Shown here: in pieces, positions 10,675-43,044 of the stretch | How positions within the stretch are numbered: position 1 is the first letter of the stretch | How the letters are laid out: each line of letters begins with the position of its first letter | IMG/VR virus record: IMGVR_UViG_3300021079_000011 | Coordinates: 1-51,203 of that record | Strand: one strand, 5' to 3' | Source: a virus | Length of the DNA stretch: 51,203 nt | Notes under the pieces: model-generated | The model's database searches: none | What the model saw: only the letters and a program-made list of their open reading frames with translations | What the model was told of the DNA's origin: nothing | Program-made: the position numbers and the translations under genes

Positions 10675-13600
10675 ATGCCATCACAGCTATTCAAGCCTGA
10701 CGATTCTCTTGATTTCGATTCTGTCTTAGAAAGCTCAAAGGCAAAGTTTGATGATGGTGGAGCATTAAGCTTTGATGCCGTCCCCGATGTTCCCGATGTT
10801 AAGCCAAGATTTTCTGATGATGGCGCATTGGACTTCGGCACACTGGAAACAAAGCCTGAGCCCGAGCCTAAGCCGATAGCTGCAACTCCGCAGCGCACAA
10901 ACTATCTCAGCTTATCGCCTGAATCGTTCCCGATAAATACGGATTCAACGATTGATAAGACTGATTCAACTCAGACTGTAAAACCCCCAGCAGCAAAAGA
11001 GGTTAATCCGTTGCCATTGTCGAGCATTCCTTGGATTGATTCAAATGGCTATCCTGACGAGAAGCTAATCGCTAAAAAAGCACAAGCCGAGACTGCTGCC
11101 CAGCAAAAGAAGCAGGACGATTTTGATTCTTTAGCTCACTCGTCTTATTGGAAGGGTGATGCAGCCAAGCAACTTCTTGAAAAAGCAGATTCCGCCAAGG
11201 AAACATTGGACAAATCTCCGACTCAAGAAAATTCAGACGCTTACAACGCGCTCATTGACCCGCTAAATGCGGCGATACAAGAACACAAGTCGAGCCAGCA
11301 AGAACTTCAGGCTGCTTATTTCAAAACAACGGGAGAAACGCCAGTCCCGCCAAGACCCGCTGAAAACAATTCTTATCGTGTTGATGGTGGCAAAATCCAT
11401 TTTACACCCGGCCAGTTTGCTGCAGGTCTGAATCAGGCTGTGAGCGATGGCGCGATTGACCCGAAGTTTGCAATGGACAATCGGGAGAAATTTCAAAAAG
11501 CGGACAAGATTCAGTCGAAGATTGATGGAAATGGCGACCCAAATTCTCAATACGAATATGACGGCAAGAACATCAGGTTTTATCCCGGTGAAGAAGCTGA
11601 CGGATTGCGCGAAGCATTGAAGGATGGTGTTGTCACGCCTGAATATGCCGCCAAAAACGAAAAGAAATTCGGAGAGGCACAAGCCAAATACAAAGAGTTG
11701 GTAGCTGCCGCAGGAAGCGAACAGGCGGCAAAAGCTTTACTTCATGGCGGGGCTAAAGGAACGGCTTTCATGGCCGCCGCTACTCCGGCATTTAAGGTTG
11801 GCGTGATTGGGACGGAAATGATTCCCGGTGTCGGGGAAATTCCCGGAGCAGCACTTGTTGGCGGAACAATCACTTCACTTCTCGCTGGCAGCGCGGCGGC
11901 TTATGCGACGAGCAAGCTGATGGACAAAGCCGCAGAGTATTCAGATTTTGTAAAAAAGTTCACAGCATCGGCTGAACTTCATCCTGTCGTGGATGCTGTG
12001 GGCGAACTGGCCGCTTTCGGGACAGGCGCACCAAAGGCATTGAGCAATCTCAAAAAGGTTTACGACATTGCTGGTGGCGGACGGGCTGGCGCAAAGGTTG
12101 TTGCACAAGAACTTGGCAAGGGTGCTATTGGGGGCGCAGCATTTGAAACCATTGTAAGGCCAGCTTTTGATGCTGGCAGATATGCGGTTGCCGACATGCT
12201 GGACATACCGCATGACAAGTTTCAATCTCCAACGCTTCAATCTGTTGCAACGATGGTCGGGCTCGGGATGTTGCTTCATGGCAAAAGCATTGAGTTCAAA
12301 AATTATTCCGACAGCCAGATTGCAGAAATTCTGCTAAAAGCAAAACTTCGGCGCGATGCTGGAATACCGCTGGACGAAAAAAACCTGACAGCAGAACAAA
12401 AGGCACAGTTCGCAATGGCGACAGGTCTGGGTGAAGGCGCGACAATTCCAGAAATTGAAGCGCACTTGGCAAAATACAGACTACTTGTGCCGCTGACAGA
12501 AAATGAAATTTCCGTCCACGACAAGTTGCAATCAATGGCCAATTCGATGTCGCAATCTGGCAATTTTGAGAACGACACGATAAAGAGCATCACGGCGAAA
12601 CAGGCATTGTTGCCAAGGATGATTGGCCAAAAGCCAAAACCTGTCACATCGGCAGACATTGAGCTTGAACCACCGTCCGAGCCGCGCCCGATGCTTGGCA
12701 GTCCAGAGCCCCCGCCTGAGCAGCCGCAAGCCCCGGCAGTATTCCATTCGATTCAGCCCCCGATGATACCCGGCCAGCAGCCGATTGAGCTTTGGAATTT
12801 GACCGAGGACATTCCCGGCCATCCGAAAGGCTCAACCGTGTCTCGTTCAACACTGGAAAAGGCCGGGTATATTGTGCCGTCTGCACCCGCCGCGACACCA
12901 AGCGACGACGAGCAGCCCGACGCGACAGGGGCGAAGGGGAGGCAGGTGGGTAAAGGATTTCAGCCGATAGTAGTTGGCAAAAAGGTGTTGTCGATAACAA
13001 CTCGCCCAGACACGGCGACATGGCAGGTAACATCATTCGCAGATGAATACCGAGAGCAACCATCAGGGCATGAGGGATTCAAAACGCTGGGCGAGGCGTT
13101 GGAATTTGTTGACTACAAGGGTAAGGAAAACAGAAGCGTCACCGACCTTGGATGGCAAAGCCCAGATGCGATTTTTGCGGCGTTGGAGCAGAATCCGGGC
13201 GCGAACGACCCGAATCCCAAGAACTTCATTTATGCGTCACCACGCCGTCCGCTTTCAGGACTGCGTGTTCCTGATGCGGTTCAGTCTCTTTCGTTCAAGA
13301 ATAAGGAAGGAGGGTTGGCTGGAATTGTTGAGGTGTCGCGCCCTCTGACGTTGGATGAAATGGCGGCATTTGAATTAGTTCCGGTCAACACATCGGCATC
13401 AAACACCTACTGGAAATCTGTGGCAGATGCGGTGCATCCGGGGCATGAAAAGATTCAAGCTGGCAAAGACGTTGCCGCCGAGACAGGGGCGAAGACAGGA
13501 AAACCATTCACGGCTAAAGCTTATCGTGGAATCAGCCCAAAGACACCAAACGACAAAGGCATTTATTCGGAAGGAGAACACTGGACGACCAGCAAAGATT

Positions 13601-16600
13601 ACGCGGACACATACGGGGACAAGCGCGGCGGAAAGACTCATGAATCGGAAATAACACTACAAAATCCGTTCGTGGCAACACCATCGGAAATGACTCGGTT
13701 GCATCACGGCCTTTCATCGCGTCAAGTGCGCGAGAAACTTCAAGCTGCTGGACATGATGGAGTCATCATATTGCATCCTGACGACGTTGCAGAATCGAAG
13801 GCTGCTGGTGTTCCTGACAGGCTTTTGCCGCCAGCACTAGGTCAAGAAATAATAAAATTCAACAAGCCCACCCTGCCCCCCGCCGCCGCGACAGGGGCGA
13901 AGGGGAAGCAGCCTAGTGCCACTGAATACGAGCGAATTGAGCGCGAGATTTCGATTGCTTTGAAGAATCCATTGTTCCGAGAGCAATCCAAAGCTGGCAC
14001 GGATTTCCGGGACGCTTTTCGAGACTTGGAAACAGAAGCGGAGTTTCACAAGCCTGCCGCGATTGAAAAAGCTCAGGCCGAAATTGACGCTGAGAAGGCC
14101 AAGAAAGCCGCCAAGTCCGGCAGTCCAGACATTGCTTTTATTGAGCGAAGTATTGCAAATCTGGAATACAGAATAAGACAAGACAAAATGCGAGGAATGA
14201 AGCGACCAGAGGATGTCCAAAGGCTTGCCGAACTTCGCACACAACTTAAATCAGCCAGCGCACCAGCCCCCGCGCAGACAGGGGCGAAGGGGGATGAACA
14301 ACACTTTGACAATCTTTTACGGGACACGTTTGGCGTAATCAACAGATTGCCAGCGGACAACATTGTTCGTAAGAGTGCAGAAATCGGGACTCGGGTTGCA
14401 ATGGGCGCAAAGACTGATGAAGAAAAGATTCTGGCAACAAAAGAACTGGCAAAATACGCCCAAGATGCAGCCAGCGAGTTGAGAAAAATCAGCCCGAAAG
14501 ATTCTGAATATGCCGACAGGCTGGAAAAGTCTCTGGACGACTACATAAAATCACAGCCCAAGACTGCCGAGCCAAAGCCAGCAGAATCACAATTCAAGGC
14601 TGGCGACATTGTTTTACATGACGGGGTTCAAAAGAAAGTTGTTCGTGTTTCGCCCGATGGCAAATTTGTCGTGCTTGGAAAACGAGCAGTCCCGGTTGCG
14701 GAAGTTAAACCATTAGAGCAACCCCCCGCCGCCACCGAAACCATTGAATCGCTCAAAGAGGAAATTGCGAAGATGGAGAATCGGCTTGAAACCATTTACA
14801 TACCCAAAGGCAACAAGGGCGACATCACAAACTACCGCTCGCAAATCGAAGGTAAGCGCAGGAAGCTCGCTGAACTTGAAAAGGTTGCCGAGCCAAAGCC
14901 ATTTAGCCCCGACGAAGACTTGCTAATGCACTCGCCCCATACGGGTGAAGATTCAATCGTGAATTTCCGGGGCTACATGCCAGATGGAAAGGCGATGGTC
15001 TGGACTGGCAAGATGCAAATGGCCATACCCGCAGAATGGCTACGCAGAAAAGGCGAGGCCAAGCCTGTCACGGAAAAGCCCGTTGAGCAGACAGAGAAGC
15101 CGCTTCCGTCTATTGCAATCCAAAAGTCCATAACCCAGATTTTGAAATCTGTTGCAATCATTGAGGGCAAGATTAACAAAAAGGCTTACGAAAGCGCATA
15201 CGCATCAATCCGGCTTCATGCAAACAAGCTGGGGATTGAGATTGAGCCGCTTGGGACATATTTCAACGCAGACCAATACAAGCGCGTTGCCAGCCATGTT
15301 CAAATTGAGATTGGCAAGAAATTTGGCAGCTTCCCAACAGCCGAGCATAGGGCTAAACGTGATGCTGTTCTTGCGGCTGATGCTGCAAGGAAAGCGGCCA
15401 AGAAACCCAACCGTTCGCCATTCAAAGTCAAGCCGCGCTCTGATGGTGTTCCCGACATCCTCGACGCAATTCAAGAGCTTGGCGGCATCAAGCCCAAGTC
15501 TGGCTCAACTGGTGGCGAGTATGACGGTTCTGGCGTGATGAAGGGGACGGCAAGAATGTTGTGGAACAGGCTTGGTCGTGCGCCAGATGTTCTGCTTTCA
15601 AACCTGAAATCAACAGGTGAATGGTCACGGCTCGAAACTGTGGATGATTTATGGTCTGAGATTGACCAAGCCAACAAAGCCCGGGACGCGCTCAAGTTTG
15701 GCGGTGGTGGAGATGAGGCACAGGCCAGAAGATTCTGGGAAGCCATTGACAAGCCCGAGAACGAAAAAGGTTTTGAGAAAATTCACGGTAGCCAACTTAA
15801 CGTCGGAAGCAAATTCAGGCTTAAAGGTGACGGCATAAGCCATGAAGAGCTTGAAGTCACACACATTGACCCGGACACAGGCGAAATAACCATCAAGGAC
15901 GGGACAACTTTTGGCACACAAGAAATTCCTGAATCAATCGAAATTTACATCAAGAAAGGCACACTCGAAACACCCGAAGACACCGGGTTTGATACGGGCG
16001 AGGAGCAGCCCGAGCCCAAAAAAGATGAAGAATTTGCTTCTCATTACGAGTTAAGACACTGGACTACGCCAGAAAGTGCCGCAAGTTTGTTAAGGGGTGA
16101 GCCTTTCAATTTCTCCCGCGAACCAATTCATAGTCAGGTAGATTTAAGCGGAAACTTTATCAAGGGGAAGCGCATGGGCGGGAACAGAATCCATCTTTCT
16201 CTGGACGATGGAACATGGGGTTTTCGACGAGACGCGAGCGGCAAGGTTATTGGAAATCTTGTGCCAGTAACTTATGCGGTTGATTATGCCGCTAAAGATT
16301 TACTCATTGACTCGCCAAAGTCGCTGCGTGAAGCGGAGCGACTGGCTGGCGAGAATGCCACCAAACCAGACGGAACTGGCAACGCAGCATTCTGGGATGC
16401 GCTACAAAAGAAGGGCATTAAACTTGTCCGAGTCGAGAATACTTCCGACTATCCCAATGTGAGATTCTTTGCCCAAGCAACTAGCGACACGGTGGTTGTG
16501 CTGGACAATTCCGCTGTGAAAGTAATTTCAAAAGCCAAAAAAACAGCCGCCCAGCCCAAGTCTGGCGAGAAAATCTTCACTGACACGGAAGCTGACGAGG

Positions 16601-19600
16601 CTGAGAAATGGCTTAGGGAAAATCTTGGGTTAAACGAGGATGAAGAAGGCGACGGATGGGATGCGTCTGAAGACCCCGGCCACCAAGAGGGCAGCAAAGG
16701 TTTAGACCCGAAAATTCTTGCCCGAGTCGTCACAATGGCTGGTCGAATCATTGAGTCTGGCAATGTGAAGTTTTCGGATTATGCGGCTCAGATGCTAAAG
16801 AAAGGGTTCAAGGGCGACTTGGCCAAATACATCCCTGCCGCATACCATGAAGTAAGAGATTTTTCCGAGGCCAGCGCATTGCGACATCAGATGTCAACCC
16901 GCGAAGAGGTTGACAGGTTTGATTACAATGCTGAAACAGGCCAGTTCGATGAAAGCCAGCCCGACCTTGGCGGAATAATAGGCTCAGACGAGCCGGGAGC
17001 AAAGCGACCACCGCTAAGAGAGGTTGACCCGAGCTTGATTCCTACTCCAAACATTTATGTCAAGAAAGGCCAATACACAGGCAAAGGAGGCCATTCGATT
17101 GACGAGCAACAACGGTTCGCAATCAACGTCATGCTCACCGCAAAGGCAAATGGCGAAAAGGCTGGCGTTTTGGCCGATGGAACTGGTGTTGGCAAGACTG
17201 GCATTGAACTGGTTCTGGCTGTTCAACTGGCTGAAATGACGGGCAAGCCTGTTGCGATTGTCACAGAAAACAAGGCTGTGATTGAAAATGCGTTTGTGAT
17301 GAACGCAAAGAAGTTCGGCATCGAAATTGATTTCGATAAGGTCAGATTTTTTACCTATACAGACTTGTCGAGCAACAACCTGCCAGACATTGAATGGGGC
17401 GCAGTCATATTTGATGAATCTCAAAACATCAAAAACATCATGTCTTCGCGTGGTGTCACCGCAGAAAACATCAAGTCCGAGTTCAATGTTTACGGGACGG
17501 CGACACCGATGGACAATGTTTTTCATGCGCCATATTTCTTGGGCAAAATTCTCGGGGTAGATGTTTTCACGATGGCGAGAAGGCTTGGCTACGAGCTTGT
17601 TCCCATAGATTTGCCCAACGGAAAATCATCATTCATCGCAAAATGGTTGAAGAGCAAAGACGGGGCGATTCCAATTTCTGAGTCCATCAAAAGGCTGAAA
17701 GATTACAGGTCGCAAGCCGTGAAGCGCGGGACTTATATCCGGCGCGAATATCCGTTCTTTGGCTCGGTCAATTTCAAAAATGCTCCGAGCTACAACGAGA
17801 AACAGCTTCACGAACAGGACGAGATAAACAATTACTGGGACGCTCTGGCGGCAGCAGAGCCCAAGAAGCGCATGGTCTATAATGCCCAGCGCATGAACGA
17901 GCTTGCCAGATGGACTGAGGCTCAAAAGGTTCAGGGCGCAATCGGTGAGATTGTTGCAGATTACGAAGCTGGAAAGCATGTGGTTGTTTTTGCTGAATAT
18001 GTAAATGACGGCGTTATCAAGGGGCTTGAAAAACTTGGTGTTCCATACGAAGTCCCCGGAACGCTTAAATATATCGCAGCAGAATTGAAAAAGCGCGGCA
18101 TCCCGTTTGCAACGGTGTTTGGTCGCGGGAAAGATAAGGGCAAAGAAGCGGCTGAATTTCAGCGGAACAAAAAAATCAGGGTCTTGCTCGCAACACCCAA
18201 GTCTGGCGGGGCTGGGCTAGACATGGACGATACGCATGGTGATTTCCCGAGAATCGTTCACATGTTGACCATGAATTATTCTGCGTCAATCTTCGACCAG
18301 ATTCTAGGTCGCGTTTCCCGCCGCAACACAGCAAGCCCGGCCAAGATTCTAATTTGGCGAGCCGAAAATTCACAGTCAGACCGTCGCAAGGTTGTCATTC
18401 TTGACCGTAAGCTTAACATCCTGAGAAAGATTCAGACCGGGGAAGACTTGGACACAACGGCTTTTGAAGAAAATTCTCAAGGCGACACATCAGCCGATGA
18501 TGAAAGCGGCACGGCTGAATCTTCGACAAAGAAGGGCGAGGATGGGGTTAAAATACTTGATGATGTCATTGACGACGAGTTTTCTTCCCCGGACATAACG
18601 GACACGGTTGACGACGAGTGGAATGACGAGCAACCACAGTCTGAGTTCGACATCTTTTCAGCCAACGACAGGGAGCTAAACGATTTCTTGGACAAACGGT
18701 TTGGGACAGAAGACAGGCGGCAACGGGGCGTTTCCGGGGATGCTGCTCGCCGGGGCTCTGGCGTTTATCAATTCCCGACCTACGAAGCTTTTGCGAAATG
18801 GATGGACGAAAGGTATGTCGAGCGGGACTTGGAAGGCATGAAGCTGGCTTTTGCCGAGGCCGAGCGCGATTACAAGGTTAAATACATCAAGGCCAACAGA
18901 GCCCCTGAGCATAAGAAGGATTGGGTAAACCATCTTGCAACAGGCTCGGTGCTTCCGGCTGGCGACCCGCCAATAACCCGCACGACACCGAGGCCGCTGC
19001 CCGGTGGCGGCACAGCCCCAGTCCCGGGAACGCCGCCAACCAGCACATCAACACCGCCAACGCCGCCCGGCGCACCGCCCAGACCGTCCAGACCGCCAAC
19101 GCACCATCGCAAGTTTAACATCACGGCTTTGGTTCAATTATTCAAGCAGTTCGCCAACAGGCATCCAACAATCAACGCCAAATTAGCCAAGACAACGCTT
19201 GGACGGCATCTGTCACCGCTCGGGCTGATTGAGCTTCAAAAGAATCTGCTCTGGGACATGGACTTGGCCGAGCGCGTTCTTGGCCATGAGATAGGACATT
19301 TCATTGACCTGATTGTTGAGGCATCCGGCAAGGGCAAAGAGATTGGGAACAGGCTCAGGCCGATGTTCGACTTTACTGGTCAGGCGATGCACAAGGCGGA
19401 ACTGAAAAAAGACATCATCAATTTGAGCAAGGCTTGGCGCGGAAACTTTTCTGCATCTGACAAATACAGGAATTCACCCAAGGAATTGATGGCAGATTTT
19501 CTGTCGGCAATGTTTAACGACCCGGAAATGGTGAATCAAACATTTCCAAACCTGTATGATGCTTGGCAGGAATTCAAGGACTCAAAGCCGTCATTCAAAT

Positions 19601-22600
19601 CCGCTTACCGCGAGATTGAGACTTGGCTTCAGGGTGATACGATGGGTTCGGAATTGATTGATAAATTCGGCGAAGATACTGACCTGACTTACGACATCTT
19701 GGGCAAGGAAGATTCGGACAACAAATCAACTTGGTGGGAAACATTCAATCATAGCTTCATCAGCCTATGGAAACGGGCTGGCGAAAAGGAGGCTAAAAAA
19801 GTTCCATTAAACAAATTGTCACCAGCTAGGCTCTGGAACAAGTCTGGATATAAGATGGTTAAGAATCGGCGCGTAGGATATAAGATTGAAGAGAAGCTTG
19901 ATGTTTCCCACATCTGGGCGGCAAACATGACTGCCATCTGGCAGGACGACTTCAGAAGGGATGTTCAGCCTTGGCTGGACAAGGTTGATTCCGACCCTCG
20001 CACGGTGCAGAAGTATTTTCAGAGCTACGCAGTTTCAAAGAGAACACTAGAAGAAACCAAAGCGGCTGGCGTGTGGATGAAGGACAACCCGGTTGAGACT
20101 AGGGAAATGCTTGAAAAGATTCTGGCAACAGTTTCCAGTCTTGAAGCGGAATATCTATCTGAGCTTAGGAACGCCTCAGATGATGAACTATACAATCTGA
20201 GCGCGAAGATTGCTCGCAAGATTCTTTTGATGTCAGATTCCAAGATTAACGAAATTGCCAGCGAGATAAACAGTCTCGGTTTTGAAATCAAAGGAAAACT
20301 TTTCTTGGGCGCGTTTGCTGTTCGTAGCTTTTTACTAAACACAGGAGGAATAACCCCAGAATCTGCACAGCTTGTCTTGAACGAGCTTCAGAGAAGACTG
20401 AGCCCGGAACAGTATTCGGCACTTGAAAAGGCTGCGGCTGAACTTCGCAAGCTTGTGTTTAAGGTTTCAAAGGAAATGTATGACCAAGGGCTGATAAACA
20501 AAGACATCTGGTATGAAACAATCTTGCCCAACCAAAACACTTACCTGCCTTATGCGGTTCTGGATTATTTCGACGGAACAGTAAGGGGCGGGATAATGCA
20601 ACAGGGTGGCAGCGCAAAAAGAATCGCGTCCGTAATAGCTGCTGCTCAATTAAAGGTTCAGTCCATGTATATTCTGTTGCAGAAGCAGCGGCAGGTTAAG
20701 CTTATCATGGATTCCTACAAAGCTGGTGACTCTGGTAAAGTCGCTACTGTTACCCGAAGGTTGCAAAGAGCCTCTGACCTGCACTCGATTAGGGGTCAAC
20801 ATCTGAGGGACACAACAAGCAGGGCGATACTTAGGGTCAACGGCTCGCCTTACCTTGTCGAGTTCCCGGAAGACCCCGGCAAGCAGTTTGAAAAATCAAT
20901 GGAAATAGCTGAGTTTTACGCATCGCTTGACTGGATTCACAACGTTTCAAAGTATTCTCATGCTGCCCAACAAATTTTCACCCAGCTTGCACCTACATTC
21001 CTGTTCTATCGCAACCCGATTCGTGGGCTTAGGACTGGTGCGCTAAAGGTTGGTGGGAGACACATATTGAAAGCGGCTTTCAACTGGGACTCAATCACGC
21101 AAGCCAGAAACTATGCTAACGCTTCGTTTAGTGGTCTAATGTCCCCAGTTATCCGTCAACTGGTTGAAGGTCAAGCCCTGATGTCGCCAAGGGCTGCTTC
21201 TGGTCAAGTAAGAGACGTTTCACAAATTGCGGGGCAAGGCTTGGCTGGTAAATTTCTGGCGAGCGAAATGAGACGTTTGGCGAGGAATGCAAATAAAAAA
21301 CCGTCAATACTTGGAGACAAATACAGGCAGGGAATTAACTTCTCTGCTAAAGTTTTCACAGGATTGGAAGCGTGGGAAAAGATTTACAACTACAAAGCCG
21401 CACTCGCTAAAGGGTTGACTCAGGAACAGGCTCTTATGATAACTCAAATGAGCGGAATACCGAGGCCGGGTGTTGGTGGCAAATTCTCGCCTTTTGTGGA
21501 AATCGGCATGCCTTGGACTCGCGTTAAGATTCAAGGCATGAGGGCAACCTACGACATGGCGCGTGACCCCGAGCTTGGCAAAGGTTTCTGGGCAAGATTT
21601 TTCATGTATGAAGCAGTCCCGAAGATTCTTCAAATGCTAGTGGCCAAGGCAATTGTATCGGGGTTAATCGCATGGATTTACAATAAGGGAGACGACCCTA
21701 AAGACCCGGTTATCACAGAGGTTTATCGCCGCATATCCCCATATAAAATGGCTTTAGACAATATTATACCACTGATGCTGTATAACCCGAGAAGCGGAAA
21801 GTATCATAAGTTTTGGGAGTTCAAGAGCGGCAATGAAATTCCGGCTCATTACGAGGTTGTTAGCCTGAGAATCCCGACCAGCGAAGAAGGATTGACATAC
21901 GGCACATTCCTTCATGCTTTAATGGTTTCTGCTTCAGGCGAGTCCAAAAACCTTGGCCGACCCGGAGCAACCCCAACCAAGAATATGTTTGATTGGGCTA
22001 TGAATTCTCTTTTACCCCAACCAAACCCGATTGCCACGACAGCATGGAAAACTATTCAGATGTTGGCAGGGACAAATCCAACTGACGATTTCAGAAACCA
22101 GCCGTCAGCAAACAAGCAACTGTTCGACGCTGGTGGCAAAGACAGGTTTCAGGCCATTCTTGGGTTTGAAGCGAGCCAGACCGCTGCTTTTGGTGAAATA
22201 GCTGGCATCATCGCGGCGAATTACGGCTTGATAGACCCCAAAGCTTTGAGCGCATTAAGCAAGCGTTCGGATTCAGATAATAAATCGTTCGTTGATAAAT
22301 ACCCATTTGTTAAAGCCGCATTTTCCTTCGACAACTACAATGGTTATAGGCAGGAGGAAAATGAGAAATTGGATAATGAAAAATATCACGATAGAGCTAA
22401 AAACCTGATGCCGACTGAAGGGCGGGAAATGTATAATTTCTATTATCGAAACCAAGACAAAAAGAATCTAGCTCCGCAAGACCAAGAAATGTTTGATATA
22501 GCGAAGCAATGGAACAGGGACATTTGGGGCTTAAAATCAACTGAAGACAAACTAAAACCCAACAGCAAGAAGCCCCCTAAATCTACCTACTACCCGCAAA

Positions 22601-22728
22601 TCCTTACGGCTGTTAAGAACGAGGCTTCACCCGAAATGTTGCGGACATTACAAGAAAATTTAAGACAGGCGAGTTCGCCGTATTACAGCTCCTTTACAAA
22701 CGCCAAGTCTGGCGCAACAACCAAATGA
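10675..22728 (+). CDS. Giant polyvalent protein: ART-like, SF2 helicase, metallopeptidase
   Basis: A 4017-residue protein, almost a quarter of the genome. In order: a disordered acidic N-terminus; Gly/Ala-rich hydrophobic segments around residues 360-420; an ADP-ribosyltransferase-like fold near 900-1065 (KAYRGIS at about 948); a second such region near 1785-1955 (LRHWTTPESAA); an SF2 helicase at about 2140-2600 with Walker A DGTGVGKT (2168-2175), DESQ (2247-2250) and motif VI ILGRVSRR (2543-2550); a Pro-rich linker; a zinc metallopeptidase HEIGH (2871-2875) with a downstream ELMAD; then about 1100 mostly helical residues with a hydrophobic helix near 3650. A TGAKG-containing linker occurs four times. 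Known polyvalent proteins are packaged in virions and injected to counter host defence, sometimes with internal-virion functions. That role here is inference. Confidence 0.85.
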   Translation: MPSQLFKPDDSLDFDSVLESSKAKFDDGGALSFDAVPDVPDVKPRFSDDGALDFGTLETKPEPEPKPIAATPQRTNYLSLSPESFPINTDSTIDKTDSTQTVKPPAAKEVNPLPLSSIPWIDSNGYPDEKLIAKKAQAETAAQQKKQDDFDSLAHSSYWKGDAAKQLLEKADSAKETLDKSPTQENSDAYNALIDPLNAAIQEHKSSQQELQAAYFKTTGETPVPPRPAENNSYRVDGGKIHFTPGQFAAGLNQAVSDGAIDPKFAMDNREKFQKADKIQSKIDGNGDPNSQYEYDGKNIRFYPGEEADGLREALKDGVVTPEYAAKNEKKFGEAQAKYKELVAAAGSEQAAKALLHGGAKGTAFMAAATPAFKVGVIGTEMIPGVGEIPGAALVGGTITSLLAGSAAAYATSKLMDKAAEYSDFVKKFTASAELHPVVDAVGELAAFGTGAPKALSNLKKVYDIAGGGRAGAKVVAQELGKGAIGGAAFETIVRPAFDAGRYAVADMLDIPHDKFQSPTLQSVATMVGLGMLLHGKSIEFKNYSDSQIAEILLKAKLRRDAGIPLDEKNLTAEQKAQFAMATGLGEGATIPEIEAHLAKYRLLVPLTENEISVHDKLQSMANSMSQSGNFENDTIKSITAKQALLPRMIGQKPKPVTSADIELEPPSEPRPMLGSPEPPPEQPQAPAVFHSIQPPMIPGQQPIELWNLTEDIPGHPKGSTVSRSTLEKAGYIVPSAPAATPSDDEQPDATGAKGRQVGKGFQPIVVGKKVLSITTRPDTATWQVTSFADEYREQPSGHEGFKTLGEALEFVDYKGKENRSVTDLGWQSPDAIFAALEQNPGANDPNPKNFIYASPRRPLSGLRVPDAVQSLSFKNKEGGLAGIVEVSRPLTLDEMAAFELVPVNTSASNTYWKSVADAVHPGHEKIQAGKDVAAETGAKTGKPFTAKAYRGISPKTPNDKGIYSEGEHWTTSKDYADTYGDKRGGKTHESEITLQNPFVATPSEMTRLHHGLSSRQVREKLQAAGHDGVIILHPDDVAESKAAGVPDRLLPPALGQEIIKFNKPTLPPAAATGAKGKQPSATEYERIEREISIALKNPLFREQSKAGTDFRDAFRDLETEAEFHKPAAIEKAQAEIDAEKAKKAAKSGSPDIAFIERSIANLEYRIRQDKMRGMKRPEDVQRLAELRTQLKSASAPAPAQTGAKGDEQHFDNLLRDTFGVINRLPADNIVRKSAEIGTRVAMGAKTDEEKILATKELAKYAQDAASELRKISPKDSEYADRLEKSLDDYIKSQPKTAEPKPAESQFKAGDIVLHDGVQKKVVRVSPDGKFVVLGKRAVPVAEVKPLEQPPAATETIESLKEEIAKMENRLETIYIPKGNKGDITNYRSQIEGKRRKLAELEKVAEPKPFSPDEDLLMHSPHTGEDSIVNFRGYMPDGKAMVWTGKMQMAIPAEWLRRKGEAKPVTEKPVEQTEKPLPSIAIQKSITQILKSVAIIEGKINKKAYESAYASIRLHANKLGIEIEPLGTYFNADQYKRVASHVQIEIGKKFGSFPTAEHRAKRDAVLAADAARKAAKKPNRSPFKVKPRSDGVPDILDAIQELGGIKPKSGSTGGEYDGSGVMKGTARMLWNRLGRAPDVLLSNLKSTGEWSRLETVDDLWSEIDQANKARDALKFGGGGDEAQARRFWEAIDKPENEKGFEKIHGSQLNVGSKFRLKGDGISHEELEVTHIDPDTGEITIKDGTTFGTQEIPESIEIYIKKGTLETPEDTGFDTGEEQPEPKKDEEFASHYELRHWTTPESAASLLRGEPFNFSREPIHSQVDLSGNFIKGKRMGGNRIHLSLDDGTWGFRRDASGKVIGNLVPVTYAVDYAAKDLLIDSPKSLREAERLAGENATKPDGTGNAAFWDALQKKGIKLVRVENTSDYPNVRFFAQATSDTVVVLDNSAVKVISKAKKTAAQPKSGEKIFTDTEADEAEKWLRENLGLNEDEEGDGWDASEDPGHQEGSKGLDPKILARVVTMAGRIIESGNVKFSDYAAQMLKKGFKGDLAKYIPAAYHEVRDFSEASALRHQMSTREEVDRFDYNAETGQFDESQPDLGGIIGSDEPGAKRPPLREVDPSLIPTPNIYVKKGQYTGKGGHSIDEQQRFAINVMLTAKANGEKAGVLADGTGVGKTGIELVLAVQLAEMTGKPVAIVTENKAVIENAFVMNAKKFGIEIDFDKVRFFTYTDLSSNNLPDIEWGAVIFDESQNIKNIMSSRGVTAENIKSEFNVYGTATPMDNVFHAPYFLGKILGVDVFTMARRLGYELVPIDLPNGKSSFIAKWLKSKDGAIPISESIKRLKDYRSQAVKRGTYIRREYPFFGSVNFKNAPSYNEKQLHEQDEINNYWDALAAAEPKKRMVYNAQRMNELARWTEAQKVQGAIGEIVADYEAGKHVVVFAEYVNDGVIKGLEKLGVPYEVPGTLKYIAAELKKRGIPFATVFGRGKDKGKEAAEFQRNKKIRVLLATPKSGGAGLDMDDTHGDFPRIVHMLTMNYSASIFDQILGRVSRRNTASPAKILIWRAENSQSDRRKVVILDRKLNILRKIQTGEDLDTTAFEENSQGDTSADDESGTAESSTKKGEDGVKILDDVIDDEFSSPDITDTVDDEWNDEQPQSEFDIFSANDRELNDFLDKRFGTEDRRQRGVSGDAARRGSGVYQFPTYEAFAKWMDERYVERDLEGMKLAFAEAERDYKVKYIKANRAPEHKKDWVNHLATGSVLPAGDPPITRTTPRPLPGGGTAPVPGTPPTSTSTPPTPPGAPPRPSRPPTHHRKFNITALVQLFKQFANRHPTINAKLAKTTLGRHLSPLGLIELQKNLLWDMDLAERVLGHEIGHFIDLIVEASGKGKEIGNRLRPMFDFTGQAMHKAELKKDIINLSKAWRGNFSASDKYRNSPKELMADFLSAMFNDPEMVNQTFPNLYDAWQEFKDSKPSFKSAYREIETWLQGDTMGSELIDKFGEDTDLTYDILGKEDSDNKSTWWETFNHSFISLWKRAGEKEAKKVPLNKLSPARLWNKSGYKMVKNRRVGYKIEEKLDVSHIWAANMTAIWQDDFRRDVQPWLDKVDSDPRTVQKYFQSYAVSKRTLEETKAAGVWMKDNPVETREMLEKILATVSSLEAEYLSELRNASDDELYNLSAKIARKILLMSDSKINEIASEINSLGFEIKGKLFLGAFAVRSFLLNTGGITPESAQLVLNELQRRLSPEQYSALEKAAAELRKLVFKVSKEMYDQGLINKDIWYETILPNQNTYLPYAVLDYFDGTVRGGIMQQGGSAKRIASVIAAAQLKVQSMYILLQKQRQVKLIMDSYKAGDSGKVATVTRRLQRASDLHSIRGQHLRDTTSRAILRVNGSPYLVEFPEDPGKQFEKSMEIAEFYASLDWIHNVSKYSHAAQQIFTQLAPTFLFYRNPIRGLRTGALKVGGRHILKAAFNWDSITQARNYANASFSGLMSPVIRQLVEGQALMSPRAASGQVRDVSQIAGQGLAGKFLASEMRRLARNANKKPSILGDKYRQGINFSAKVFTGLEAWEKIYNYKAALAKGLTQEQALMITQMSGIPRPGVGGKFSPFVEIGMPWTRVKIQGMRATYDMARDPELGKGFWARFFMYEAVPKILQMLVAKAIVSGLIAWIYNKGDDPKDPVITEVYRRISPYKMALDNIIPLMLYNPRSGKYHKFWEFKSGNEIPAHYEVVSLRIPTSEEGLTYGTFLHALMVSASGESKNLGRPGATPTKNMFDWAMNSLLPQPNPIATTAWKTIQMLAGTNPTDDFRNQPSANKQLFDAGGKDRFQAILGFEASQTAAFGEIAGIIAANYGLIDPKALSALSKRSDSDNKSFVDKYPFVKAAFSFDNYNGYRQEENEKLDNEKYHDRAKNLMPTEGREMYNFYYRNQDKKNLAPQDQEMFDIAKQWNRDIWGLKSTEDKLKPNSKKPPKSTYYPQILTAVKNEASPEMLRTLQENLRQASSPYYSSFTNAKSGATTK

Positions 22729-32495: not shown

Positions 32496-33818
32496 ATGGC
32501 AGTCTCTTGCGATACATTACGGTCAAACTTTGCGCGACAAACGCCCGTCTTCGACGAGGCTTTTCTTCAAGATTACATTTCCGACATGGTGAACGAGCCT
32601 TTTGTTGGCCGTCACATGAACGAAACGTGGGAAGATGGCGCAGCATCCCGCACGTTCGACAAAATCCACGTTCAACAGCCGGATTACCTGAAGCCTTGGG
32701 CTCGGCGCGGCGTTGGCAACGGCTCGGATTGTGCCGCCCCCGTTTGCGCTCCCCCGCGCACACTGGTTGGCTACGGGACGACCCGCGACACCTATTTCAC
32801 CGAGCAAAAACTGTTGCAATCGCAACCGTTCTGCTTGGACGAACTCCGTCAGATTCCGAAGGTTGGCAAGCAGATTGAGCAGATTTACCGTATTCTGCGC
32901 CAGATGCCGCTCGCCTTCACCGGGGAATACCTGCGGACACACTTCTTCTCGTATCACGATACGATTCAAATTGCTGGCTCGGCGTTCAGCACGTTTTCAA
33001 CCACAACGGCGAACACTGACCCGAATCTTACCACTGTGAAGCTGGCGAGTGCCGGGGCTTTGCCTACCAGCGAGTTGACTTGGCCGATTTTGCAGTATTA
33101 CGGCCAGTTGCTCGGTATGCGCGGTTACGACCAGAATTCTGGTCTGGCCAAGGGCATGAGAAACTTGGTCACTCACAGCCGCACCTACTTCAAGTTGGTC
33201 GGCCAAAACCCCGAAATCAAGCCCCAGTTGCATCTGGTCGGCGTGAAGGATGTCAGTCCTCTGTATCAGATTGGAACTGGTGTCAATGCCGACCCGTTCG
33301 GCAATTTCGCCCCGACATTCGACGAAAAGCAGGTTCGCTGGCAGCATGTCGGCTCTGGCCTGTTGAATCGCGTGTTGCCCTACCTCAACACCCCGGCGAC
33401 GACTGGCGAAAAGCCCATCGTCAATACGGCATGGTTCAACGCCCGGTATGGCCTGAGCTACATCCTGCACCCGAAAGCGGCGGCATTGGTTACGCCCAAG
33501 CCGAAGAAAATCAGCGATGCTGTGCCATCGGTGAACAGCGCGATGTGGGGCAAATGGTCGTTCAAGAACCCGGATGGTTTGATTAGCTGGGAAAACAGCG
33601 ACGGGACGACCTGCACCAAGAACAACGACTTGCTCTGGTGGTTCTACTGGCTCTGCTACCTTGAAGTTGGCTTCAAATACGAGCAGCGGGATTTGGTCAT
33701 GCCCATCATCCATCTGATTGACGGCTCTGGGAAAGACTGCGTGGTTGACAGCCCTGTTTGTGGGGATGCACCGCAGTATGTCGCTCAGGACTACAATGTT
33801 GGTCTGATTGAGTGCTAA
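32496..33818 (+). CDS. Major capsid protein
   Basis: A 440-residue protein starting in the context AAAAACTATG. It has its own promoter region and is followed by a strong hairpin, as expected for the most abundant virion protein. Residues 1-60 have an N-arm rich in acidic and aromatic residues (SDMVNEPFVGRHMNETWED). A long central domain (MRNLVTHSRTYFKLVGQNPE, HLVGVKDVSPLYQIGTG) and a C-terminal domain with WWFYWLCYLEVGFKYEQRD follow. It contains many Cys. No known fold motif is diagnostic by eye, so the call rests on position, size and expression signals. Confidence 0.75.
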   Translation: MAVSCDTLRSNFARQTPVFDEAFLQDYISDMVNEPFVGRHMNETWEDGAASRTFDKIHVQQPDYLKPWARRGVGNGSDCAAPVCAPPRTLVGYGTTRDTYFTEQKLLQSQPFCLDELRQIPKVGKQIEQIYRILRQMPLAFTGEYLRTHFFSYHDTIQIAGSAFSTFSTTTANTDPNLTTVKLASAGALPTSELTWPILQYYGQLLGMRGYDQNSGLAKGMRNLVTHSRTYFKLVGQNPEIKPQLHLVGVKDVSPLYQIGTGVNADPFGNFAPTFDEKQVRWQHVGSGLLNRVLPYLNTPATTGEKPIVNTAWFNARYGLSYILHPKAAALVTPKPKKISDAVPSVNSAMWGKWSFKNPDGLISWENSDGTTCTKNNDLLWWFYWLCYLEVGFKYEQRDLVMPIIHLIDGSGKDCVVDSPVCGDAPQYVAQDYNVGLIEC

Positions 33819-33821
33819 CAC

Positions 33822-33857
33822 TTTGGCTGGTGCGGAATAAACCCCGCACCAGCCAGA
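33822..33857 (+). terminator. Strong hairpin after the capsid gene
   Basis: An 11-bp perfect stem (GGCTGGTGCGG at 33825-33835 with CCGCACCAGCC at 33844-33854) encloses an 8-base loop; flanking T/A pairs lengthen it. No U-run follows, so it is not a clean intrinsic terminator. It could be an attenuator, a processing site or an mRNA 3'-end stabiliser that makes capsid more abundant than downstream products. Confidence 0.55.
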
Positions 33858-33870
33858 ACCTTTCAAAATT

Positions 33871-34146
33871 ATGGACAAAAACCTTCCAACCGGGGAGACG
33901 ATGAACGAGGGTTCATCAATCCCGCCAGAAACACGCGCAGACGAGGCCGAAACAGCCGATATTCCGTTGTCTATGCTGGGCGATGTCTCCGAAGGCGAGA
34001 CGGTTACAGTCCGGGTCGTGAGCGTCAACGCCGATGCGGGGACTGCGACCATAACCAAAGCCGTTGACGAACCCGATGCCAGTCCGTCTGCGACGGATGC
34101 AATGGCTTCAGAGTTTGACAAAGAACAACCAACCGAACAGGCATAA
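33871..34146 (+). CDS. Small acidic protein after the capsid gene
   Basis: A 91-residue protein, very acidic. A central beta-like segment (EGETVTVRVVSVNADAGTAT) is flanked by disordered Glu/Ser/Pro-rich arms. It follows the capsid gene after a hairpin and starts in the context AAAATTATG. Small acidic proteins at this place are often decoration proteins or capsid cement, but no fold is recognised. Confidence 0.6.
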   Translation: MDKNLPTGETMNEGSSIPPETRADEAETADIPLSMLGDVSEGETVTVRVVSVNADAGTATITKAVDEPDASPSATDAMASEFDKEQPTEQA

Positions 34147-39280: not shown

Positions 39281-40021
39281 ATGAGTTCAAAAGTTTTCAG
39301 CGGCGAAATTGCCGTCCCCCAAGCCCTCGAAATATCAAGCGATGCCTTGGCCAAGCGCGGCCAGCTTGTTTCTGGCAGCAAGGCGATTACATCCATACTG
39401 AGCGAAGAGACACAGATTTTGGCTGTTCAATCGGCCAGAGAGATTCGGTCTTGGGTCAAGGAAGTTGAAGAGACTCGGGTTGAGCTTACAAAGCCCCTGC
39501 TCGACCTGCAACGGCTCATTAAATCAACGGCAGACGGCTACTGTGCGCCACTGGTTGAGGAACAAAAGCGGGTTGAGAAGCTGGTGACGGTCTTTCAGGA
39601 GGCTGAGGCTGTTCGGGTGGCCAAGGAGGAGGCTGCTGCTGCCGAGTCGTTGCGAAAGAGCTTGGAAGCGCAACAGAAGGCGCAGGAGGCTGCCGATAAG
39701 GCTTTGGCCTCAGCCAAGACCGATGCCGGGTTGGAGAAGGCTATTGCGAAGGAAGACGCTGCTATTTTGGCGCAACAGAAGGTGCAGGAGCTTATTTCAG
39801 CCCCGTTACCTACTGTTGCGCGGTCAAAGGGTGCTGTGACGCGCAGGGTGCTGCGCTGGGAGGTCACGGACATAAACGCTCTGGTGAAGGCGCGGCCTGA
39901 ATTGTGCAAAATTGAGCCTAAAAACATGGCGATTCAGGCTTTGTGCGTCCCGGAAATGCCCAATCCCCCGCCGGGGCTTAAATTGTGGTGGGAAAATCAG
40001 ACAACAATACGCAGTTATTAA
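39281..40021 (+). CDS. Coiled-coil early phage protein
   Basis: A 246-residue protein. The N-terminal 80 residues are mixed, followed by a long helix of about 100 residues rich in Ala, Glu and Lys (AEAVRVAKEEAAAAESLRKS). The C-terminal 60 residues contain RRVLRWEVTDINALVKARPE and PPPGLKLWWENQTTIRS, which I recognise as a conserved module in phage recombination-region proteins (Gp157/DUF1351-like neighbourhood). It lies before the protein with an SSB-like acidic tail, so a DNA-metabolism role is plausible. Confidence 0.65.
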   Translation: MSSKVFSGEIAVPQALEISSDALAKRGQLVSGSKAITSILSEETQILAVQSAREIRSWVKEVEETRVELTKPLLDLQRLIKSTADGYCAPLVEEQKRVEKLVTVFQEAEAVRVAKEEAAAAESLRKSLEAQQKAQEAADKALASAKTDAGLEKAIAKEDAAILAQQKVQELISAPLPTVARSKGAVTRRVLRWEVTDINALVKARPELCKIEPKNMAIQALCVPEMPNPPPGLKLWWENQTTIRSY

Positions 40022-40043: not shown

Positions 40044-40451
40044 ATGCACGTTAGCGGATTAAAACAGTCCAAGTTCCTGACTCGGGCAGATGTTGGGAGC
40101 GGGGTTCTGGCGACCATTCAGGCTGTGTTCCAAGAGAATGTGGCCAAGGAAGGTGCGCCGGAAGAAATGAAGTGGTGCGTTGCGTTCGATGAATTGGAAA
40201 AGCCGATGGTCTTAAACTCGACGAACGGCCAGCTTATTGCGCAAATCACCAAGCAGGAAGACACGGACAACTGGAATGGCCATCAGGTTGTTCTTTATGA
40301 CGACCCGACAGTATCGTTCGGCGGCAAGCTCGTTGGCGGGATTCGGGTTCGGGCAAGCCGCGCTCCGAAAGCTGCTTCAGTGAAGCAGGGTGCGACCAAG
40401 CCCAAGCCGCAGGTTGAACCTGAGCCGGAAAACGACGATGCCCCGTTTTGA
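40044..40451 (+). CDS. Phage DNA-metabolism protein with SSB-like acidic tail
   Basis: A 135-residue protein with a clear Shine-Dalgarno (AGAAAGG). The core, with FLTRADVGSGVLATIQAVFQ, MVLNSTNGQLIAQITKQEDT and VVLYDDPTVSFGGKLVGGIR, resembles a small beta domain found widely in tailed phages. The C-terminus is Pro/Glu-rich and ends ENDDAPF, like the acidic tip DDDIPF of single-strand DNA-binding proteins. A role as SSB substitute is inference from tail and context. Confidence 0.7.
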   Translation: MHVSGLKQSKFLTRADVGSGVLATIQAVFQENVAKEGAPEEMKWCVAFDELEKPMVLNSTNGQLIAQITKQEDTDNWNGHQVVLYDDPTVSFGGKLVGGIRVRASRAPKAASVKQGATKPKPQVEPEPENDDAPF

Positions 40452-40677
40452 TTCCAGCCCGGTCAAGAAACCAACTGCTCAACCGCAGTTCAAGGTTCTC
40501 TGTGAATCTGACGAGTTCGCCCTGTGCTGCTCGGCTGAGACGGAGGACACTACGGTTGAGCGGTTCAACTGCCATATTGGGGTTGACGAAGGTTGGGTTC
40601 TGTATGAAACAACGCCATGCCCTATTTCCGAAACCCACAAGCACCACCTCTTTATGCGACCCGGAAAGTCGAAATAA
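40438..40677 (+). CDS. Small hypothetical protein overlapping the SSB-like gene
   Basis: A 79-residue protein that begins at the ATG inside the end of the previous gene (14-bp overlap). It has Cys pairs (LCESDEFALCCSAET), then a strand-rich end with GWVLYETTPC and KHHLFMRPGK. It is typical of small early phage proteins. No function recognised. Confidence 0.6.
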   Translation: MPRFDSSPVKKPTAQPQFKVLCESDEFALCCSAETEDTTVERFNCHIGVDEGWVLYETTPCPISETHKHHLFMRPGKSK

Positions 40678-40805
40678 AAAACAGTGAATTGCAGTCTTGG
40701 TGCGACAGAGAAAAAGCTGGTGAATTCAAGATAAACTCAATGGCTCTGGGCAAGAAGGGGTTCGGCTACATTTTGACTATAACATGGAAAAACAGCGACA
40801 TTTGA
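40617..40805 (+). CDS. Possible small early protein
   Basis: A 62-residue frame overlapping the preceding gene by 61 bp. The part after that overlap (KNSELQSWCDREKAGEFKIN, then FGYILTITWKNSDI) looks like a genuine protein. An alternative start is the in-frame ATG at 40741. It ends eight bases before the tRNA-like element. Low confidence because of the long overlap. Confidence 0.4.
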   Translation: MPYFRNPQAPPLYATRKVEIKNSELQSWCDREKAGEFKINSMALGKKGFGYILTITWKNSDI

Positions 40806-40812
40806 AAACTAT

Positions 40813-40943
40813 GAGCGGGTGGCGGAACGCAAAAACGCAAATGAAATCCGAAGGCGGCTTTGGAAACAAAGAAACTGCATCGGTGACTTATGTGGCTGCA
40901 AAGAATGTCCCACTTGCAGGTTCAAATCCTGCCCCGCTCGCCA
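40813..40943 (+). tRNA. tRNA-like element with large insertion
   Basis: An acceptor stem GAGCGGG (40813-40819) pairs perfectly with CCCGCTC (40933-40939), followed by a discriminator G and an encoded CCA (40941-40943). The T arm GCAGG-TTCAAAT-CCTGC (40916-40932) is perfect. A D-like arm GCG...CGC follows positions 8-9 (TG) and resembles tRNA-Leu, but its loop lacks the invariant GG. The interior is 40 to 55 nt longer than in a normal tRNA and no clean five-pair anticodon arm was found. A GAAA-capped hairpin CTTTG/CAAAG (40858-40871) lies inside. It may be a degenerate or intron-bearing tRNA, or a tRNA mimic. Confidence 0.5.
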
Positions 40944-41397
40944 CTGACTATTTTGCAAACCAGTATCAGCCTCGCGGCTGGCCGTTTCATGTTGCGGTTT
41001 CCTCTGGTTTGCCGACCAGCCCGAGACTCGTTCTTGGGCTGGGAAATTTCCAGTTGACAGATTAGATGGTATGAGACAAATTCAAATTGTTCGTAGCAGG
41101 TGTAGAAACCTTGCTGCTGATGAAAGAGTGGTCGAACGTGAGATTTTAGACCTTCCCGCTCTGGACGATGCCCGACTTGGGCTATCGGGCTTATCAGCAA
41201 AGCTTTTCTACCCAGAGCGGGATTTCCCCTTTCTACGAGCCGTGAAACGGCTTCATGCGATACAGATTGCCGGAACATGGTTGGCTCGCCCTTGGGCGAT
41301 GCTGGCGCGAGCGACACGCGAAGACGGCCTATTCCCGGTTGCGGAAAAAGTAAAACGTCAACCCAGCTTAACAGTCCGGGTTGTGGTTTTACTTTTT
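40944..41397 (+). ncRNA. Candidate structured RNA downstream of the tRNA-like element
   Basis: No credible gene lies in about 530 bp between the tRNA-like element and the gene at 41475. Instead there are several stems: CCAGCCC/GGGCTGG (41016-41042); a 10-bp stem CCCGCTCTGG (41155-41164) with CCAGAGCGGG (41212-41221) enclosing GCCCGA/TCGGGC (41170-41190); AGCCGT-GAA-ACGGCT (41238-41252); GCTCGC/GCGAGC near 41284-41312; and the terminator at 41350-41397. Measured from the tRNA-like start the unit would be about 585 nt. Large phage RNAs of the GOLLD and ROOL families also sit beside tRNAs, but membership was not tested. Confidence 0.5.
41350..41397 (+). terminator. Rho-independent terminator
   Basis: GTAAAAC (41350-41356) pairs with GTTTTAC (41386-41392) and, across a 2x2 internal mismatch, CAACCC (41359-41364) pairs with GGGTTG (41378-41383). 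A run TTTTT follows (41393-41397). The apical loop contains one copy of the ACAGTCCGGG motif. It would end transcription after the structured segment. Confidence 0.8.
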
Positions 41398-41424
41398 CTT
41401 GAACAGTTTTTCTCCCTGCTGACT

Positions 41425-41445
41425 GGGGAGGGGTTTGGGGTGGGG
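41425..41445 (+). other. G-quadruplex motif, plus strand
   Basis: Four runs of four G separated by A, TTT and T (GGGG-A-GGGG-TTT-GGGG-T-GGGG), then a T-run. This is a strong quadruplex pattern on the plus strand, between the terminator and the gene at 41475. It could block transcription or replication forks, or be the leader of the downstream mRNA. Confidence 0.65.
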
Positions 41446-41474
41446 TTTTTCTTGAGCTTGGTTTTTCCTTTTAC

Positions 41475-41648
41475 ATGAAACAAATCCCGTTCAAACAATT
41501 TATTTCACAGGAATCTGAACGGCTTGGGGTCTGCAAGCTGACAGTTCGCAGGATGATAAAGGCTGGTCACGGTTACAAGAAGGTCTGGTTTGAATACAAG
41601 CCGAGGCTGATACGGGTGAACAAGCGCGTGGTTTTTGTAAATTTATGA
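41475..41648 (+). CDS. Small winged-HTH / excisionase-like protein
   Basis: A 57-residue protein. SQESERLGVCKLTVRRMIKA resembles the helix-turn-helix of excisionase or MerR-type proteins (L-G-V-x-x-x-T-V-x-R), followed by two strands (KVWFEYKPRLIRVNKRVVFV). Its stop overlaps the next start (ATGA). It lies directly after the G-quadruplex. A role in transcription or recombination control is plausible; no integrase is present. Confidence 0.6.
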   Translation: MKQIPFKQFISQESERLGVCKLTVRRMIKAGHGYKKVWFEYKPRLIRVNKRVVFVNL

Positions 41649-41923
41649 GCACACCATCAAAACTAGCAATCGAAGTCGCGGAGAAATTATTTTGTGAAGA
41701 TAGATTTTTCACAAAGGTAGAGTTAGTGGTTGAACTCGTCGACTCCGCCATCATCACCGCCACCACAGATAAAGACTTGGAGATTGAGAAGTGGAAAGCC
41801 GTAGCGGGAGAGTTAGCGCAAAGCGTAGAACACATCGGCTACACTACCATTGGCGAAGTGATAATCATTCAAAAAGCAGGGCTAGCACTCACCCACTACC
41901 AAACCCTGAAAGGAACACCATGA
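41645..41923 (+). CDS. Hypothetical early protein
   Basis: A 92-residue protein starting with ATGA overlap. KLAIEVAEKLFCEDRFFTKV and DLEIEKWKAVAGELAQSVEH form helices, and the C-terminus has IIIQKAGLALTHYQTLKG. Acidic and soluble. No known motif. It ends by ATGA with a tiny downstream frame. Confidence 0.55.
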   Translation: MSTPSKLAIEVAEKLFCEDRFFTKVELVVELVDSAIITATTDKDLEIEKWKAVAGELAQSVEHIGYTTIGEVIIIQKAGLALTHYQTLKGTP

Positions 41924-42503: not shown

Positions 42504-42691
42504 AAAAACTATTCAGCCAATGGTTGCGGTGCGATTTTTGCGGTGCGCTAATTCAAATCTGGGCTGGTGACAAACCGATGGAGCTTGACGACGAAAACAG
42601 GTCTAAGCTGGCCAAGAAAAAGGGCTGGGAATGGAACGGGCTGAGGCAGGAGTCAACGTGCAAAAAATGTTTGGAAACTGAAAAGCTATGA
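42500..42691 (+). CDS. Small zinc-ribbon protein
   Basis: A 63-residue protein with CDFCGALIQIW and CKKCLETEK, two Cys pairs about 40 residues apart, forming one probable zinc-ribbon. A basic middle (KLAKKKGWEWNG) could bind nucleic acid. ATGA-coupled on both sides. Confidence 0.6.
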   Translation: MKKLFSQWLRCDFCGALIQIWAGDKPMELDDENRSKLAKKKGWEWNGLRQESTCKKCLETEKL

Positions 42692-43044
42692 TTATTGATT
42701 ACGACGAAATTGCGCGGTTTCAAAAGCGTTTGCTGGAAGCATCTGAGCGGCTTGATTCCATGACGAACGGGGTTGCTCTAGCTCGGCAAGTTGTCGAATA
42801 CGACTCTGACAGGCGCAAGAAGGCTCTGGCAATGGAGGTCGCCCCGCTGATTGGAGAAATGTCGGCTGTGGCGGCTGAAGTTGTTGGTCGCGCAAGCCCC
42901 CGTTATGCTCGCGCAATGGGTGAGTTGGCCAAGCAATACGAATCTGCCCAGCGAGTTATGGCTGAGTGGGAAGCAGCCAAGATAGCATTTGAAGCTGCCC
43001 GGTCAGTCTTGTCTGTCGGCAAGGAAAGCATGAGGTTGACATGA
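42688..43044 (+). CDS. Helical early phage protein
   Basis: A 118-residue protein, almost all helical (EIARFQKRLLEASERLDSMT, KALAMEVAPLIGEMSAVAAE). It has no signal peptide or Cys. ATGA overlaps at both ends place it in a translationally coupled chain 42500-43376. Function unknown. Confidence 0.6.
   Translation: MIIDYDEIARFQKRLLEASERLDSMTNGVALARQVVEYDSDRRKKALAMEVAPLIGEMSAVAAEVVGRASPRYARAMGELAKQYESAQRVMAEWEAAKIAFEAARSVLSVGKESMRLT

Follow-up and report, generated by a model that had tools for sequence, protein, structure and literature searches.

To our knowledge, large structured RNAs of phages are few, and their functions are unknown. Among them, GOLLD and ROOL are large phage and prophage RNAs that form RNA-only cages, and GOLLD combines a conserved part with a 5' part of lower conservation (PMC12286853). 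tmRNA carries a tRNA-like domain, a tRNA-shaped end that lacks an anticodon arm within a longer RNA, and canonical phage tRNA genes (RF00005) combine acceptor, D and T arms with an encoded CCA. Here we describe a locus in the window, by which we mean the whole 51,203-bp virus record IMGVR_UViG_3300021079_000011 (IMG/VR class), that shares features with each of these systems.

The window RNA resembles GOLLD and ROOL in being phage-encoded, structured, several hundred nucleotides long and near a tRNA-shaped element; moreover, a short loop complementarity in it could act between molecules, and, as in GOLLD, the conserved part is preceded by one that is conserved less well. It differs in that the core is only ~150 nt long, matches no Rfam covariance model and has a homologue without a tRNA. 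We lean towards the reading that the region encodes a structured noncoding RNA of the phage, ~310-460 nt on the plus strand, whose core acts in trans; the transcription, processing, trans action and partner of this RNA are what we infer. Directly supported are the lack of a coding signal, the strength of the fold, its strand asymmetry, the recurrence of the core and a conservation that follows the structure.

Gene neighbourhood of the RNA region

The genes that flank the region are the following.

39,281-40,021: exonuclease-like gene, left of the RNA region
40,044-40,451: SSB-like gene, with an SSB-type tail (NDDAPF) at its C-terminus and a PHROG of unassigned function
40,617-40,805: plausible 62-codon gene that stops 7 nt before the tRNA-like element
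41,475 (start): small conserved gene, 57 aa, with a counterpart frame in contig L073 (44% identical)

Between the genes that end at 40,805 and start at 41,475 lie 669 non-coding nt, which are filled by a tRNA-like element (40,813-40,943) and ~450 nt of folded sequence. The gap of about 530 bp given in the preliminary description is thus accurate for the part after the tRNA-like element, which takes up ~530 of the 669 nt. Elsewhere in the window, positions 10,675-22,728 form a single open frame of 4,017 codons, and the terminase (922-2,709) is 44% identical to that of contig L081.

Recombination genes adjoin both known copies of the core, namely the exonuclease- and SSB-like genes in the window and a YqaJ recombinase gene in the homologue. 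Because of this module context we rank as the main rival a cis-acting element, which might be a leader or a signal for processing within the mRNA of an early gene, or else single-stranded DNA folded into a site for replication or recombination. Both copies sit within recombination/replication modules beside small genes, and the next conserved gene starts only 75 nt past the terminator-like hairpin. However, the plus strand folds better than the minus strand, as expected of RNA rather than of duplex DNA, the terminator-like hairpin stands between the core and the next gene, and the neighbours of the two core copies are unrelated, so that we regard a cis-acting role as unlikely, if worth keeping in view.

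A tRNA-like element without an anticodon arm

The element upstream of the folded sequence is composed as follows.

40,813-40,943, plus strand: tRNA-like element (Rfam tRNA, 30.2 bits; rejected by ARAGORN; canonical anticodon arm absent)
40,813-40,819 (GAGCGGG) with 40,933-40,939 (CCCGCTC), plus strand: acceptor stem, 7 bp
40,822-40,838, plus strand: Leu-type D arm (TGGCGGAAC...CGC), D loop without GG
40,916-40,932, plus strand: T arm
40,941-40,943, plus strand: encoded CCA, with G73

The score from the Rfam tRNA model (RF00005) is only ~1 bit above its 29-bit cut-off, and ARAGORN, run on the window, did not accept the element as a tRNA. A 5-bp anticodon stem with a 7-nt loop carrying U33 was not found after the D arm, where ~78 nt of other sequence stand in place of the anticodon arm; the element as a whole folds with a z of -2.7. 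Its acceptor, D and T arms and encoded CCA are those of canonical phage tRNA genes, from which it differs by this replacement, by the missing GG of the D loop and by its rejection by ARAGORN. With tmRNA it shares a tRNA-shaped end that has no anticodon arm; the acceptor halves are, however, only ~110 nt apart, and the downstream RNA lies outside the tRNA-like part. A tmRNA identity of the region was rejected, as neither Rfam nor ARAGORN gave a tmRNA match.

A pattern search of IMG/VR (TGGCGGAAC-N75..104-GGTTCRAATCC) matched 65 places. The flanking seven bases were fully complementary in 41 of them, versus 4% with the halves permuted, and 28 distinct acceptor pairs occurred, with several pair types at every position. 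Since the acceptor halves are complementary and covary strongly, long Leu-type tRNA-like elements are widespread in uncultivated phages. Among the 32 distinct elements with a D arm of recognisable limits, only 2 had a normal anticodon arm directly after it. Judged by this pattern, the window's element is one of a wider set of phage Leu-type elements without a normal anticodon arm.

Several variants were seen among these loci (L003-L067), for example L028:107-206 and 343-480, L003:2669-2780 and 4578-4693, and L040, in which the acceptor/D/T scaffold is constant and the middle variable; in L028, L003 and L040 several elements share a locus, and their ends are identical (AGTCAGG...CCTGACT) but their middles differ. 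Insertions of ~30 nt or more in the D loop occur in L020/L034, L024/L032/L050, L053 and L021, several of which have a motif containing GGCAACAC in common. The elongated elements L021:6022-6135, L044:5393-5519 and L046:2748-2870 (minus-strand coordinates) have non-Leu D arms, and the phenomenon is thus not limited to tRNA-Leu. In addition, L044:2496-2714, on a 373-kb viral contig, is a permuted tmRNA (Rfam tmRNA_permuted, 52 bits). Elongated tRNA-like elements may therefore be a broader phenomenon, separate from the window RNA.

Fold strength and layout of the RNA region

Without the terminator-like hairpin, the sequence that follows the tRNA-like element (40,944-41,339) folds at -155.7 kcal/mol, versus -128.7 for dinucleotide shuffles. 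This difference of -27 compares with an average of -2.4 (sd 5.7) and a best value of -20 for 39 other 396-nt stretches of the window, and with -16 for the opposite strand of the same stretch. The whole unit (40,806-41,402) has a z of -5.5. Two stretches carry the signal, with a z of -4.7 for 40,944-41,060 and of -3.5 for the core at 41,089-41,238; taken by itself, 41,239-41,342 shows no structure (z +0.4). When the window was scanned in 150-nt segments, the strongest local fold, 18 kcal/mol below shuffles, lay at 33,751-33,900 around the end of the gene 32,496-33,818, where it is probably a terminator. Around the core, the following features were delimited.

40,955-41,042, plus strand: 5' domain (z -4.7 for 40,944-41,060)
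40,955-40,963 with 41,004-41,012, plus strand: 9-bp stem of the 5' domain, GCAAACCAG/CTGGTTTGC, enclosing two hairpins
41,016-41,026 with 41,032-41,042, plus strand: 11-bp hairpin of the 5' domain
41,054-41,059, plus strand: TTGACA box upstream of the core, a possible, weak -35 element by direct reading
41,343-41,399, plus strand: terminator-like hairpin, 14 bp plus a 6-bp GC-rich inner stem, with a U-rich 3' arm

Our best reading of the architecture is thus a window-specific 5' domain, a pseudoknotted core and a terminator-like 3' hairpin. No counterpart of the 5' domain was found in the homologous contig L084, and neither this domain nor the terminator nor a long-range outer stem has comparative support. 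This outer stem (40,953-40,998/41,269-41,310) closes the region in the minimum-energy fold; it was rejected in favour of the local 5'-domain fold, as its duplex energy is no better than that of shuffled arms. The TTGACA box also occurs in L084, at the same distance from the core to within one base, and no convincing -10 element was found to go with it. Of the strong rho-independent terminator proposed earlier the stem is present; its U-rich tract, however, lies inside the 3' arm, and a terminator pattern scan made no call.

A pseudoknotted core conserved in an unrelated phage contig

The core consists of the following elements.

41,086-41,243, plus strand: conserved pseudoknotted RNA core, 158 columns (~150 nt), homologue at L084:4010-4173, covariance model R1
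41,089-41,093 (GTTCG) with 41,236-41,240 (CGAGC), plus strand: core closing helix, possible in both sequences, without covariation support
41,095-41,115, plus strand: core hairpin AGCAGGT-GTAGAA-ACCTTGCT, in which the pair 41,098/41,111 is A-U here and C-G in L084
41,102-41,107, plus strand: pseudoknot 5' strand GUAGAA in the hairpin loop, partner UUCUAC at 41,206-41,211, invariant in both sequences and proposed from geometry
41,154-41,222, plus strand: 11-bp stem TCCCGCTCTGG/CCAGAGCGGGA, enclosing hairpins 41,166-41,187 and 41,188-41,204 and the pseudoknot 3' strand 41,206-41,211

The perfect 10-bp stem with hairpins inside that had been noticed earlier is present (CCCGCTCTGG/CCAGAGCGGG, 41,155-41,164 / 41,212-41,221) and can be extended to 11 bp; for the 11-bp stem and the two hairpins that it encloses, pair probabilities of 0.99, 0.98 and 0.89 were obtained.

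Contig L084 (IMGVR 3300010233_001805) was found by a tblastn-type search with the open frame that spans the RNA, and its block shares 85% of 150 nt with the window. Outside this block, no frame of at least 50 codons from the window matched the L084 contig, and the gene neighbourhood differs; we read the match, at the level of nucleotides, as a homologue in an otherwise unrelated phage contig. Thirty of the 158 aligned columns differ, 2 among 84 paired and 28 among 74 unpaired ones (Fisher p 4e-9), all 42 proposed pairs, including the 6-bp pseudoknot, are possible in both sequences, and when the structure was shifted circularly, all 157 placements did worse than the real one, with the caveat that these two sequences served both to draw the structure and to test it. 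Both paired differences are the partners 41,098/41,111 and thus make one compensatory change, from A-U in the window to C-G in L084, the only one in a core known from two sequences in which the pseudoknot is invariant. Within the domain of the 11-bp stem (41,154-41,222), variation in L084 is confined to loop bases. Conservation shaped in this way by the structure makes a good case for a conserved RNA fold, within the limits set by two sequences that also defined it. The base changes of the homologue leave the core stems intact, and together with the compensatory change this supports the preliminary description in its central proposal of a structured noncoding RNA, possibly of an undescribed class.

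The core also raises the question of catalysis, as it is compact and pseudoknotted and some of its unpaired stretches are conserved (UGAAAGA-UGG-CGA, UUUUAGACCUU). That it is a self-cleaving ribozyme, or catalytic in a similar way, is nevertheless distinctly improbable, as no ribozyme family is matched at E = 10 and L084 has lost the CUGAUGA that resembles a hammerhead in the window; a hammerhead was rejected on the latter ground.

Coding potential

One open frame spans most of the RNA.

41,071-41,478, plus strand: 135-codon open frame, judged spurious (substitutions 8:7:6; low codon score; no PHROG match)

Hence the earlier statement that no frame looks like protein was right as to the coding signal, which is absent, and wrong in that a long open frame exists. 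A small protein gene in this frame, or in the opposite frame 41,317-40,922, could be argued from both frames being open, from an ATG start of the plus frame in the window and L084, and from a tblastn identity of 59% over 72 residues between the two. However, of the 21 substitutions before 41,226 that separate the window from L084, 8, 7 and 6 affect codon positions 1, 2 and 3 of the plus frame, and the split is 8:6:7 in the opposite one; since there is no third-position excess, the 135-codon frame is not a gene. Its codon score is low, well inside the wrong-frame range, it matches no PHROG family, and in the window it passes through the terminator-like stem, whereas in L084 it stops elsewhere. 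We therefore consider a protein gene very improbable, and no conserved protein frame was found across the region.

Known RNA families and distribution

A cmscan of the whole window at the gathering score gave no GOLLD, ROOL or tmRNA match, and with permissive filters and E up to 10 the stretch 40,600-41,700 matched, besides the tRNA, only a few meaningless miRNA/lncRNA hairpins. Group I introns, known ribozymes and riboswitches, and other Rfam families were rejected, as the region had no Rfam match, and a retron was rejected, as no reverse transcriptase was among the window proteins scanned. Membership of GOLLD or ROOL, as suggested at first, was not upheld, since neither covariance model reached E = 10. 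A divergent member of either would account for a phage RNA of several hundred nucleotides that adjoins a tRNA-like element and has possible loop-loop contacts; it is extremely improbable, however, given the failure of permissive searches and the core of L084, beside which no tRNA-like element was found.

In cultured phages, blastn gave no nucleotide match to the RNA region or to a structural-gene stretch, and no core homologue was found by blastn in INPHARED or PLSDB. The exact core pattern occurred in IMG/VR only in L084 and in 84,980 genomes only as chance matches (the four matches L087-L090), and the covariance model R1 revealed no third copy in 64 sources, 50 viral records or ~1,190 genomes of three phyla. 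Weak R1 matches in L071 (a terminator) and L044, the R1 matches L093-L095, and L085, from the search that gave L084, were all rejected as chance. Searches through the exonuclease-like, tail and terminase proteins found no homologues, and a capsid-gene candidate as query gave only distant relatives, without the RNA. In one published study, structured RNAs of viruses and phages were reportedly predicted on a large scale, and the core may already be listed there as a computational prediction.

Where the SSB-like gene has relatives, the RNA region is missing. L068 has an SSB-like gene 82% identical to that of the window, with a homologue of the window gene 42,688-43,044 no more than ~150 bp after it; given this short spacing, the RNA region has the look of an accessory insertion beside the SSB-like gene. 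The closest SSB-gene relative (G001) has at L096:1501-1570 a 70-nt Leu-type tRNA-like element with an encoded CCA and practically no anticodon arm. The single 585-nt unit of tRNA-like part and RNA that had been proposed is not supported, as the L084 core stands without the element and this relative has a degenerate element without the core. Since L084 has no tRNA-like element and relatives of the SSB-like gene have no RNA, the two are separable and need not form one functional unit.

The same observations could suggest debris, in which a decayed tRNA gene lies beside a common kind of intergenic terminator and no RNA has a function, as the tRNA-like element is degenerate and the SSB-gene relatives do without the region. 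Against this stand the structure-shaped conservation in an unrelated contig and the strength of the fold, and we consider debris improbable.

Proposed role of the RNA

For the favoured trans-acting RNA we propose that the plus strand would be transcribed either by read-through from the upstream gene and the tRNA-like element or from a promoter of its own, with a start at the TTGACA box that the two copies share. In the first case, host tRNA-processing enzymes might cut the tRNA-shaped end and so release an RNA with a defined 5' end, and the transcript would end at the hairpin 41,343-41,399. The hairpin loop GUAGAA would then pair with the UUCUAC that abuts the 11-bp stem, which carries two more hairpins, and the folded core could be the working part, a stable scaffold that acts in trans while the phage infects its host and to which a protein or a second RNA would bind. 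It is just as possible that the exposed 6-nt complementarity joins two copies.

By its sequence, the window RNA looks like a small new, undescribed family of viral RNA. A bolder reading, which we put forward as a tentative possibility, is that the pseudoknotted GUAGAA/UUCUAC core marks a new class of phage RNA, an accessory module that moves between unrelated phages and possibly assembles as dimers or higher forms through loop contact. The core is small and clearly delimited and occurs in two unrelated phages, which makes it easy to make, probe and solve, and thus a tractable case for the role of such RNAs.
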